Positions 30,501 to 34,362 of a DNA stretch of 64,000 nucleotides are shown in pieces. Location: positions 62,001-126,000 of the forward strand of contig JAQGBZ010000062.1 in NCBI GenBank assembly GCA_034687125.1. The letters are read 5' to 3'. Under the pieces are notes generated by a model. The model searched no databases. It saw only the letters and a program-made list of their open reading frames with translations, and was not told the origin of the DNA. This DNA comes from Neelides folsomi. Taxonomy: Eukaryota; Arthropoda; Collembola; Neelipleona; Neelidae. The position numbers were made by a program, and so were the translations under genes. Each line of letters opens with the position of its first letter. The stretch's first letter is position 1.

Positions 30501-30537
30501 ATATCTGGTGGGCCATTAATTGAGCCGTATTTTTAAT
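30501..30537 (+). repeat. Left terminal inverted repeat
   Basis: Begins ATATCTGGTGGGCCATTAAT and continues TGAGCCGT followed by ATTTTTAAT. Read inward, it matches the right end over 37 positions, differing only at position 6 (T against G) and position 29 (A against T). It lies distal to the 3' end of the transposase-like gene. I noticed no other copy of this motif in the window. Confidence 0.92.
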
Positions 30538-31126
30538 CGATCGTAACTTTAAAATGACAAAAAATTATAAAACTATTAATATGGCATTAGATGAGGAATA
30601 TATTACTTTATTATATACCCAACTATTAGCTGAAATGGTTGAACCCTAATAAACGACAGCTACTTTTCTTTGAGAAAGTCTTGAAGGTTTGGATCGAAAT
30701 GAATGGGACCTTTCATGACATTCTCGTTCAGACCAATCTGACATCGGGGAGATCCAGGCGCAGCCCAAAATTTCATTGTCTCATTTTCCCCATAACGCTA
30801 CTTTTTGTCCATTTAAAATACACACGATTTCACAATATCTCGTAAGTCTCTCGGATTTGAAAGGTATATCGTAGAAGCAAATATGTTCGCAATGAAAAGT
30901 TACCTATAATTCATATTCAAAACCTATTCAAATATTAGAGATTAACTGACGCATGATGATAAGTTACAGGGTTCACAAAAACTTATATTTTCCGGATATA
31001 GAAATAGTCATGATTATTTATTTATAAGTTCAAATTTACTACACTATAAAGTAAAATAAATAATCTGTATAAGAAAAACCACCGTCCCGCCAATTTGATA
31101 ATTAATTTTATAACTTCTATTTTCAC
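30538..31126 (-). other. Transposon 3' untranslated region, inner side of left end
   Basis: AT-rich sequence between the left inverted repeat and the hammerhead-like motif. It has an island of higher GC at about 30650-30850. No peptide of recognisable family is visible on either strand. It could contain a nested, decayed insertion that brought in the hammerhead, but I see no second pair of boundaries. Confidence 0.4.
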
Positions 31127-31174
31127 GGGTTTCGACCTTCGTAGCCTCATCAGGATTGGGACACCAATCGACCC
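31127..31174 (-). ncRNA. Hammerhead ribozyme-like motif, open helix III
   Basis: On the minus strand, 31174 to 31127 reads in order: GGG-T (5' side of helix III), C (position 17, at 31170, predicted cleavage after it), GATTGG-TGTC-CCAATC (closed 6-bp helix I, 31154-31169), CTGATGA (catalytic box, 31147-31153), GGCT-ACGAA-GGTC (helix II, 31134-31146, 4 bp including two G-U pairs), GAA (31131-31133), then A and CCC closing helix III (31127-31130). All conserved core bases of the hammerhead family are present: CUGAUGA, GAA and the U-C before cleavage. Helix III is only 4 bp and lies at the open end, so this is a type III arrangement and may be weak as a monomer. It lies 202 bp downstream of the last recognisable transposase-like codon, on the same strand. 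Cleavage activity is not shown. Confidence 0.75.
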
Positions 31175-33112
31175 TCATCTAAAAATTTAAAAAAATTAAT
31201 TTATCAAGTATGTACAATTTATTTTATTAATATTAATATATTTTATATTATTTATTATTAATGATATTTTTTAAATTAAGTATACTTACTTTTTCCATTA
31301 TCAAGGTATGTTGTCCTTAAAAATCTTACCTAACTAAATGTATATTTTGAATAAGAAACTAGAAAATTAAAATAATTAAAGCATGTTTCTTAAAGCTACT
31401 TGAGTTTCCTCGTTCCCTAATTTAAAAAGTTCAATACAAGATCCCTCAACCGTTATTCTATGAGCCTCTCTTGTTTTGGGGATTGTCAAAGTTGAATCGA
31501 ATCTATCTACAAGGTTAAATTCGGTGCATATCCTATCAATTTCAATTTGTGAAATCCAAAAAAATCCGAATTTTTGATCCTGCATCAAATCTTTTTTGAG
31601 AATTCATACAATTAATAGGGAGTAATGATTGGAGCAGGAAATGGACTTTGTAAACTTTTCCTCCTTGCTAAGGATTTGAGGGCACCGCTAACTCCATCAA
31701 CGGCCCCTTTACCGTGAGAAGTAGCAAAAAAATTCCAAGTTGCAGTCAATTGGTAATCAAAAAAGTGGTGAATCAAGTTACTAAAATTTTTTAAATTTTT
31801 ATATTGAGCTGCACATCCATCGCTAAAATAATCAGCATGTGTGATTTGTGGAAAATTACTTTTCAACCATCCCAAGAAAATATGATTGAAAGCAAAAAAT
31901 GTGGTTGTGTTATGAATTGTGGTGTCACTAATAAAAGCATTTGAGTGGGAAATAACTTGTTTCAAAATAGGATCATAAATATAAACCACACAAGCATGGA
32001 TTGTAGCTTAGTCATTATTCCAATGACGAGCTTGTGGCTCATTTTGAACAAGGAAACTAATTTTCCTTAAAATCAACATGAACTGCAGAAGTTTGATTGA
32101 TCGTCAAATTTTCTTTAGTTGTTTTAAAAATGGAGGCTTGAAAATTACTTATGTAATTGTGAGGCATGAAAAGTTTTAAAGTTTGGAATAAATAATCTAT
32201 GAAATCATCCAGATCACAAACAATTTCCCGAATTTGAAATTGTTTTTGATCTTGACCAGGTTGAAAACGTTATTTCATCGTTTTCTCCAATAAAAGATGA
32301 AATAAATTCCAATAAATTGATGGCTAGCTAATTTGCACCATTTAGGTCGGTAACTACAAAAAATTGATCGTCCTATTTTAATTGTGGGATATTCCTTTTC
32401 AAAATCTTTATACAGATCATTCAAATTTTTAAGTAAGTCAATTTGAAAAAAGGCTTCATTACTGAAATTCCATTTTCAGTAATTTTAGTACAAGAATTGA
32501 TTGATGGTAACTGATATGAATTCTCGTCTAATTCATAAAAGTTTTGCACTTTTTTAATGACCTCACTTATTTTATTTGGAGGTTCTTGCTTGACCGGTTT
32601 CAATGTATCGTTCCCTGAAAGCTTAAATCCTGCCTTTGCTAACTCGTAAGTGGTACCGAGTTCTTTTGCTGTCCTATTTGCATTTCAAGGCGTAATGCTG
32701 AGAAGTTGGATTTTCTCTAAACAATCAACTTTTTGAAGGAACTTGTGCATATTCAATTTAATTTGAGCTAAATCTGCAGAATCGCGTTCTAGCTGTTTTA
32801 TACGTTCAAAATCCAACTTCTCCTTGTCGTTCGATTGGGACTATATCTTGCTGATTAGATTTTCCTTTTAGCAAACAAACATCCCCGGAATGAGCCCGTA
32901 CCCATTCTTCCTAAATGACTGAAAGTATACTTTGAACCAAATTCATAACAATGTTGTGGACAAACATACCCTGGATTTGGAAATTTGTAGTTTTTGGATT
33001 CGATTTGGTCTTTTAAATAGAATGATAAAGAAGTAGAACACTTATCAAAACTCAAGTCGTTTCCTTCTTTTTCTTCGCATTCTTCATCAAGCAACTCAGC
33101 GACACAGTATTT

Positions 33113-33634
33113 CTAAAGATTCAAATTATAAAGATTTAAGATTATATATCATTGTATTTTAATAAAATTTAATGACTATTTGACTAAAAACTCTATTATT
33201 AATTAAAGCAAATTGACTAGAAATAAAAAATAAATAAAACTATTTGACTAGAATGACTAGAATAGATTTGAATGAATAAATTATTGTTAAAATTATATGC
33301 TTGGATATTTTTATACATTTAAAAACTAATTAACTTCTAATAAAATAAAATAATAATAATAACAATAATTGACTAGAAATTAATATAACTATTAATACTA
33401 AATGACTAGGAATATAATTAAATTTATAAACTTTGGCTAGAATAATAAATGATTTTTCCGAGATTATCTAATGACTAAAATGTAAATTTTCCAAATCTAA
33501 TCTTAATATCTAATGACTATATGAATTATATAAATGAATATCTTTATCTTTAAGTTTAAACTAAATAACTAATGACTAGTTATGACTAGTAATGACTAGA
33601 AGTGTTACAAATGAATATTATAAATGAAATTTAC
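33113..33634 (-). other. Intron of the transposase-like gene
   Basis: A 522-bp AT-rich intron on the minus strand. Its donor is AAG|gtaaat (GT at 33633-33634). Its acceptor is a T-rich run ending in ctttag (AG at 33113-33114) before AAATAC. Both boundaries are in phase 0. The coding character (acidic upstream, VAELLDEEC downstream) stops and resumes at these points. The intron carries the TGACTAG-type repeat array. Confidence 0.55.
33173..33600 (+). repeat. Degenerate TGACTA(G) dispersed repeat array
   Basis: TGACTA occurs twelve times within about 430 bp (starting at 33173, 33181, 33214, 33245, 33254, 33370, 33403, 33472, 33514, 33573, 33583 and 33593), usually followed by G or GAA. The last three copies are spaced exactly 10 bp apart and the others are irregular. 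A random hexamer would be expected roughly 0.1-0.2 times here. It reads as a decayed short tandem or clustered motif array inside the transposon intron. Its function is unknown. It could be transposase-binding subterminal repeats or simple-sequence decay. Confidence 0.75.
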
Positions 33635-33769
33635 CTTATTTGTATCCATTATCAGCGTCCCGTTGTCAATTTCCATGTCTCCTTCACCATCGTCTTAAAC
33701 TTCCATTTCTTCGTCTGCTTCATCTTCGTCTTGGTTGTCGTCAACTCTTTTCCTCTTCAGCGATTCCAT
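33635..33769 (-). pseudogene. Transposase-like exon 1, acidic N-terminus
   Basis: Forty-five codons from the ATG at 33767-33769 to AAG, then a splice donor (AAG|gtaaat). The product starts MESLKRKRVDD, with a basic KRKR patch that could act in nuclear import. A very acidic stretch rich in Asp and Glu follows. Codon 25 is TAA (33695-33697), flanked on both sides by codons of the same acidic composition, so it is probably a disabling mutation. The exon ends in phase 0, which fits the phase-0 start of exon 2. I chose this ATG because the acidic composition begins there; earlier ATGs exist upstream in other contexts. Confidence 0.6.
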
Positions 33770-34325
33770 TGGATTTGGGGATCCTCGTCGTGTCTTCTCA
33801 CAGTTCACGACACGTCAATTCGAAGCATGAGAAATCATGAACGAAGGCCCAATTTATGATTTTAGCGGGTTGAATTTAATAGGATATTTTAAATTCATAA
33901 ATTTTTATTTATTTTAACAATGAGTAAACGTATGGATAGACTTTATTTGACAACCCTATGCCAAATATGCGCGCGCGAGATAGCATGCTAGAGAATTTGA
34001 GACAATTGAAATTTTGTATTGCGCTTGGATCTCCTCTCTCCTCAATTTCCTCCTCTGGGGGTAATTTGGTCATGTCATAAACAACGTATACCTACTCAAA
34101 AAATCAGTCAATTCTAGGTGAATTGAATGAGGCTATTACCCAAGCTTTCGCGGTTGCTATGTGCAAAAGAGCATGGGAGGCAGTCGTCGGTCGGTTGTAG
34201 AGATGTATTGAAGTGAATTTGGCTAAATTCACGATTTAATTATTTTATTTATATGATATGATGTATAAGGAATATACCTGATAATTTTAGTGAAATTCGG
34301 TAATGTCATAAAAAAGATTTTACTT
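33770..34325 (-). other. Transposon 5' region upstream of the transposase-like ATG
   Basis: Non-coding sequence between exon 1 and the right inverted repeat, presumably containing the element's promoter. It includes a (GC)4G run at 33969-33977, a palindrome TAGCATGCTA just after it, and a pyrimidine-rich run near 34030-34060. I could not identify a specific TATA box or initiator. Confidence 0.4.
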
Positions 34326-34362
34326 ATTAAAAAAACGGCTCAATTAATGGCCCACCCGATAT
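34326..34362 (-). repeat. Right terminal inverted repeat
   Basis: Read on the minus strand it begins ATATCGGGTGGGCCATTAAT and continues TGAGCCGT followed by TTTTTTAAT. It is the inverted partner of the left end at 30501-30537. It lies about 560 bp upstream of the first transposase-like ATG, so this is the 5' end of the element relative to its gene. Confidence 0.92.

Follow-up and report, generated by a model that had tools for sequence, protein, structure and literature searches.

A type III hammerhead ribozyme behind the transposase-like gene of a terminal-inverted-repeat DNA transposon in the collembolan Neelides folsomi

The minus strand of the window, as the whole 64,000-nucleotide (nt) stretch of Neelides folsomi DNA under analysis is called here (GCA_034687125.1, contig JAQGBZ010000062.1, positions 62,001 to 126,000), carries at positions 31127-31174 what is, judged from its sequence and its relatives, a genuine type III hammerhead ribozyme. 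Ribozymes of this kind are known; what appears to be new is the carrier context, a DNA transposon bounded by terminal inverted repeats (TIRs). In this family the hammerhead lies past the coding end of the transposase-like gene and on its sense strand, where it probably cuts the transposase transcript, with removal of the poly(A) tail as the most likely result, and may thereby lower or time transposase output.

31127..31174, minus strand: type III hammerhead ribozyme core (motif scan, Rfam Hammerhead_3, covariation)
31169..31170, minus strand: predicted cleavage between C31170 and G31169 (from the hammerhead rule)
31125..31178, minus strand: 54-nt block for comparing relatives (alignment)

Architecture and conservation of the hammerhead

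The core of a hammerhead comprises C3 U4 G5 A6 N G8 A9, G12 A13 A14, the pair 15.1-16.1 and H17, and cleavage falls 3′ of UH. From 31174 down to 31127, the minus strand reads GGGU C^ GAUUGG UGUC CCAAUC CUGAUGA GGCU ACGAA GGUC GAA ACCC, with the caret at the predicted cut. These are, in order, the 5′ strand of helix III (GGGU), C17, helix I, CUGAUGA, helix II, GAA and the 3′ strand of helix III (ACCC), just as the first-pass annotation of this DNA had described them within 48 bases. Helix I has 6 base pairs (bp), helix II 4 bp, two of them wobbles, and helix III 4 bp; the cleavage triplet is GUC, ending at C31170. A relative elsewhere in the assembly, C91, bears an intact hammerhead at the corresponding position and in the same orientation, downstream of a transposase-like frame, with a helix III of 6 bp. 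Neither it nor the window copy, C62, departs from the core at any position. In both, helices I and II are closed by loops and helix III is open, which is the type III topology proposed at first reading. The loops, UGUC and ACGAA, are the same in the two intact copies, and UGU could pair with ACG in a possible contact between loops 1 and 2, as judged by eye only.

Judged from related copies, the hammerhead fold is kept by selection. Across the 54-nt block, C62 and C91 differ at 10 positions, all of them among the 32 paired positions and none among the 22 unpaired ones. Four pairs changed on both sides (three in helix I, one in helix II), one helix II pair went from G-U to A-U, one change extends helix III, and no pair is broken. 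When 2,000,000 sets of 10 substitutions were simulated, 5,416 were confined to the stems and a single set was confined to them with no broken pair. Among six segments aligned between C62 and C91, the ribozyme has the highest identity, 81.5%; the catalytic frame stands at 66.8%, the C-terminal frame at 59.9%, and three other 3′ stretches at 57.4%, 62.3% and 52.6%.

The same pattern was sought in an alignment of five rows, four of them full-length. All lettered cells of helices I and II are standard pairs in both sets. Over the whole structure, 88.2% of cells pair in the five rows and 92.2% in the four, versus 22.7-56.6% and 25.0-59.4%, respectively, when the partners are slid. Three measures stand out, each reached by 0 or 1 of 500 shuffles: the covariation score, the count of paired cells and the count of cells changed on both sides. 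Two others do not: the number of pairs with two-sided change, reached in 55 of 500 shuffles with five rows and 65 with four, and the number of additional pair types, reached in 445 and 280. The shuffles have low power, since they draw on just four or five rows, and two of these are 91% alike. Helix III has suffered losses in decayed copies and shows no two-sided change, so that its support comes from the core pair and from C91. The compensatory changes that the first-pass annotation had hoped for in other copies are therefore present in helices I and II and absent from helix III.

The lack of a covariance-model hit above threshold, which the first-pass annotation had named as refuting, did occur, although the models recognize the ribozyme below the curated score. 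At gathering thresholds, Rfam gave no match anywhere in the window, and at E<=10 a 1-kb stretch gave five matches, the hammerhead not among them. On 86-base stretches, for which the Rfam filters are laxer, Hammerhead_3 (RF00008) matched the window at 31124-31177 in the right register with 29.4 bits (E 4.5e-5) and C91 with 34.1 bits (E 2.2e-6), both under the curators' gathering score of 48.5 bits. Neither RF00008 nor RF00163 retrieved a match when run against the whole genome; the RF00008 run missed the window's own ribozyme too, so its negatives weigh little, and neither family search shows absence. A model built from four copies retrieved those four and a fifth, C730 (26.8 bits), the next best match in 125 kb from 21 sources scoring 10.5 bits.

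Predicted folds are mixed. The minimum-free-energy (MFE) fold of 111 bases includes the hammerhead with a stability not above that of shuffles (z -0.86); z-scores relative to shuffles do not stand out for the folds and are not counted as support. In a 174-nt context, the C62 fold contains the hammerhead and C91 is predicted to fold otherwise, and the 54-nt MFE folds of the decayed copies C8 and C507 are not hammerheads.

By motif scan, this is the sole hammerhead in the window. Across the genome, pattern scans allowing two mismatches found 29 and 38 places, whereas the reversed pattern gave 12 in each case. A motif scan of 89 sources (330,409 bases), which took in all 29 of the former loci and 30 of the 38 latter, found beyond C62 and C91 weak forms in one locus only (L012), with a helix I of 3 bp or a helix III of 1-2 bp. 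Exact pattern scans of the viral_contigs and genome_contigs collections gave no matches, and the transposase piece has no relatives in viral_contigs. Tandem hammerheads around an RNA unit, the hallmark of retrozymes and Penelope-like elements, were not found: every locus that carries a ribozyme, the window included, has one.

The carrier transposon and its relatives

By its ends and its relatives, the carrier is a TIR DNA transposon spanning about 30746-34036, from a family with 4-bp target duplications. Both its presence around the ribozyme and the position of the latter, 3′ of a transposase-like gene and in its sense, had been claimed in the first-pass annotation; a TIR search and the frame pieces, all on the minus strand, bear this out.

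33998..34036, minus strand: 5′ TIR of the ribozyme-bearing transposon, GAGGAGATCCAAGCGCA... (TIR search to 34034, last two bases by eye)
32060..33112, minus strand: more transposase-like pieces, interrupted by stop codons and shifts of frame (frame list)
31615..32007, minus strand: transposase-like piece with the motif SDG...QYKN...SHGKG..DG (frame list, genome matches)
31379..31603, minus strand: C-terminal transposase-like frame piece, stop codon at 31376-31378 (frame list, C91 alignment)
30746..30783, minus strand: 3′ TIR of the ribozyme-bearing transposon (TIR search from 30748, the two outermost bases by eye)

The TIRs of the window element start GAGGAGATCC. The 5′ TIR is 86.5% alike to the other arm and is common to C104 and C221, deletion derivatives in which both end regions are present and transposase and ribozyme are absent. 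The C91 subfamily has a different TIR (GGGTCATTC), which the automatic search listed for C91, with TATA on both flanks, and C361 has a third TIR with a TTAT duplication, seen by eye, the automatic search having listed no TIR for C361. Given these different TIRs in three subfamilies, the ribozyme or its remnant is common to subfamilies whose TIRs have diverged. Duplications are inexact for the window copy, flanked by GAGA versus GATG, and for C104, flanked by TATA versus TATG; C221 has a 4-bp duplication, AATG, by eye, and exact TATN duplications of 4 bp flank four of the four small C91-subfamily copies read. These small copies (L083-L086, on C826, C38, C171 and C308) are 326-327 bp long and internally deleted, and since they are 98-100% identical to the end of C91, they have probably moved recently. 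Among the matches listed, 3 of 53 extend to the ribozyme, and copies without it have spread. As internally deleted, ribozyme-less copies have multiplied, the DNA can probably move without a ribozyme in cis, and the ribozyme would act on the transposase RNA.

The gene itself is in pieces. Within 32060..33112 these lie at 32060-32269, 32278-32475, 32424-32684 and 32858-33112, and the window frame, broken up in several frames, is inactivated; a 392-amino-acid (aa) frame in C361 is matched by stretches of C62. In searches for a DDE/D transposase fold, the protein matched neither Pfam at cut-off nor NCBIfam, and against the PDB it found antibody chains only (E 0.14 or worse). The label “transposase” thus rests on the TIRs, the duplications and the derivatives more than on the protein itself. 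Long frames are scarce throughout the window (1-64000), the longest stop-to-stop frame having 171 aa among 264 of at least 62 aa; the window is gene-poor or its genes are finely split.

The comparison set consists of loci from one 75.1-Mb assembly of 840 contigs. Searched with the transposase-like piece 31615-32007, it gave eight matches on six contigs, the query's own included; the C91 and window transposases are 55% identical over query residues 1-101. The ribozyme or a trace of it occurs at six loci, intact in C62 and C91 and decayed in the other four. The C8 remnant, 91% like C91 over 784 aligned columns, has lost core G12; that of C507 lacks G12 and most of the 5′ strand of helix III; that of C730 retains the 3′ half; and that of C361 consists of the final 13 nt only, beside a deletion. 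The core residues that related copies had been expected to keep are intact in C91, and a core base is lost in the decayed C8 and C507. The motif is absent from the stretches read of two transposase-bearing loci, C756 and C138, and the 1.3 kb downstream of the transposase-like part of C440 has no homology. C766 (contig end reached), C81 (internal deletion in the ribozyme region) and C150 (partly read) gave no ribozyme. The C8 remnant is flanked by inverted repeat arms of 204 nt, 97.5% alike and starting TACAGTGAGCGTCA (L070, 3440-3643 and 5304-5507, reverse complement), and the C507 remnant lies between inverted repeat arms of 411 nt, 97% alike, in which ACACACC-like units are abundant (L071, 3340-3750 and 4383-4793).

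A 37-bp repeat (30501-30537 and 34326-34362) was considered as the end of the element and dropped after the copies had been compared; on sequence grounds it most likely belongs to another small element that surrounds the ribozyme transposon. The stretches 30501-30745 and 34037-34362 are the likely remains of this outer element, with the TIR GGGTGGGCCATTAATTGAGCCG, and 38 of 41 listed matches cover this outer part only. Three outer-element copies were read: in C101 the two outer parts (71% and 79% alike) are separated by 188 nt and the ribozyme transposon is absent, C479 has one good part and one weak, and C314 has one part. Between these three and the window the inner junction does not align, and an exact empty site was not seen.

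Predicted fate of the transposase transcript

The predicted cleavage site lies 206 nt past the stop codon (31376-31378), close to the 200 nt or so estimated at first reading. There, between C31170 and G31169, the transposase transcript would fold and cleave itself. The resulting mRNA would end in GGGUC with a 2′,3′-cyclic phosphate, and if the ribozyme precedes the poly(A) site in use, the transposase message would be left without a poly(A) tail. Loss of the tail may in turn lower or time transposase output, amounting to self-restraint of the element. Engineered ribozymes in 3′ untranslated regions (UTRs) switch genes likewise, according to excerpts of PMC6353947. A limit on transposase output is the most likely role of the ribozyme. 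The placement of signals around it is recorded by motif only:

31179..31190, minus strand: 3′-splice-site-like tract, TTAAATTTTTAG (motif only)
31017..31022, minus strand: poly(A)-signal-like AATAAA, roughly 150 nt beyond the cut (motif only)

Two further AATAAA hexamers stand ahead of the window ribozyme, from 31256 and 31228, and in C91 an ATTAAA and an AATAAA precede the ribozyme and an ATTAAA follows it, again as motifs only. With such signals on both sides, the ribozyme may fall outside the polyadenylated mRNA. The splice-like tract, TTTTTAG, ends at 31179, four bases ahead of the ribozyme, and is found in C91 and C730 and not in C8; donor-like motifs on the minus strand are GTAAG at 31325-31329 and GTAAGT at 31284-31289. 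These motifs suggest a candidate intron directly upstream of the ribozyme, which would remove both earlier AATAAA signals. Soon after the ribozyme comes a G-rich stretch, GGCGGGACGG (31083-31092, minus strand), with similar stretches in C91, C104 and C221. Pairing between this stretch and the 3′ helix III strand could compete with that helix, so that a switch is conceivable, if speculative.

With the coding end on one side and the 3′ TIR on the other, as in both C62 and C91, the ribozyme might also part the two TIRs in read-through transcripts and so open a TIR hairpin that would otherwise feed small-RNA silencing. This proposal argues from position, however, and small ribozyme-less copies have spread well with TIRs about 300 nt apart, which makes it unlikely. 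A ribozyme beyond the poly(A) site in use could instead cut the nascent transcript and aid 3′-end formation or transcription termination, with the tail kept, in line with the hexamers that precede both intact ribozymes. Yet hexamers are expected by chance in so AT-rich a region, and the two window signals fall inside the possible intron; such a role is improbable.

Nor does the ribozyme look much like a passenger, captured long ago from a retrozyme, a Penelope-like element or a circular RNA and of no present use to the transposon. Elements of these kinds are known to include hammerheads (excerpts of PMC7761336 and PMC6155905), and four of the six loci are decayed. The rank of the ribozyme as the best conserved of the six segments, its pairing, preserved by double changes across subfamilies that differ in their TIRs, and the failure of RF00163, albeit in an insensitive search, to find another hammerhead in the genome leave this history with a small probability.

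It is very improbable that the block is conserved as code for a C-terminal peptide (frame CGSKGVPLLMRLRRSKP) and not as RNA structure. Seven of the 10 differences between C62 and C91 do fall on third codon positions of that frame, but third positions differ at none of eight unpaired sites versus seven of 10 paired ones (Fisher 0.004), a pattern that follows the fold. The window copy moreover has a stop in frame CGSKGVPLLMRLRRSKP, the shared transposase stop lies upstream, and the compensated pairs and full hammerhead core would go unexplained. Chance resemblance is negligible: loose motifs (helices of at least 3/3/3 bp) are expected 8.6 times in 75.1 Mb of random sequence on both strands, a genome of this size, but 2.12 Gb of random single strand, matched to the window in dinucleotide frequencies, contained none with helices of at least 6/4/4 bp, and C91 has a second intact hammerhead in the same place with compensated pairs.

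Known hammerheads and the meaning of an apparently new carrier

In excerpts of five papers (PMC7761336, PMC3088659, PMC6155905, PMC7936874, PMC6431247), type I hammerheads are found chiefly in metazoan retroelements, and the type III form occurs for the most part in plants and circular RNAs, with some examples from termite and dipteran genomes and one from the Clec2 3′ UTR; a few genomic hammerheads lie in introns. The type III hammerheads of plant retrozymes, viroid-like RNAs and termite and dipteran genomes, as excerpted from PMC7936874 and PMC7761336, share with the present one the open helix III, the loop-closed helices I and II of 6 and 4 bp, the CUGAUGA/GAA core and the RUH cleavage site. 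Loops 1 and 2 measure 4 and 5 nt here, whereas 6-8 and 4 nt are typical in the excerpted part of PMC7936874. The same excerpts describe the termite copies as isolated motifs without recognizable open reading frames, in contrast to the single ribozyme of the window, which sits in a DNA transposon. The discontinuous hammerhead of the mammalian Clec2 3′ UTR (PMC6155905, in excerpt) is likewise of type III and likewise follows the coding part of a protein gene, but it has a very long helix I and resides in a host gene, whereas the present ribozyme has a compact form and is part of a transposon gene.

Penelope-like elements, Terminons and metazoan retrozymes resemble the present case in bearing a self-cleaving motif on a mobile element; in the excerpts of PMC7761336 and PMC6431247 their hammerheads are type I or minimal, whereas here a type III ribozyme rides on a DNA element that has TIRs and belongs to a family with target duplications of 4 bp. 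The carrier has the TIRs, the target duplications (in relatives), the transposase-like gene and the many internal deletions of other TIR DNA transposons with 4-bp duplications, and differs from them in carrying a ribozyme and in a transposase without a Pfam family at cut-off. Among the open-access papers listed in the literature searches, none reports a hammerhead in a TIR DNA transposon in its title or the start of its abstract. As Rfam gathering scores and the filters applied to long stretches missed the type III hammerhead of this window, more may hide in DNA transposons elsewhere.

A broader reading, tentative and on balance doubtful, is that self-regulation by a built-in hammerhead is common to an entire lineage of cut-and-paste DNA transposons. 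The ribozyme would set the amount of polyadenylated transposase mRNA, perhaps switched by the G-rich stretch, and would have been kept while TIRs and protein diverged. Genomic hammerheads, so far as the excerpted sources go, are mostly tied to retroelements and circular RNAs, and one kept by selection behind the transposase of a DNA transposon needs another reason. The simplest such reason would be control of transposase expression, and if that is true, the family would offer a case of ribozyme-based self-limitation of a mobile element.
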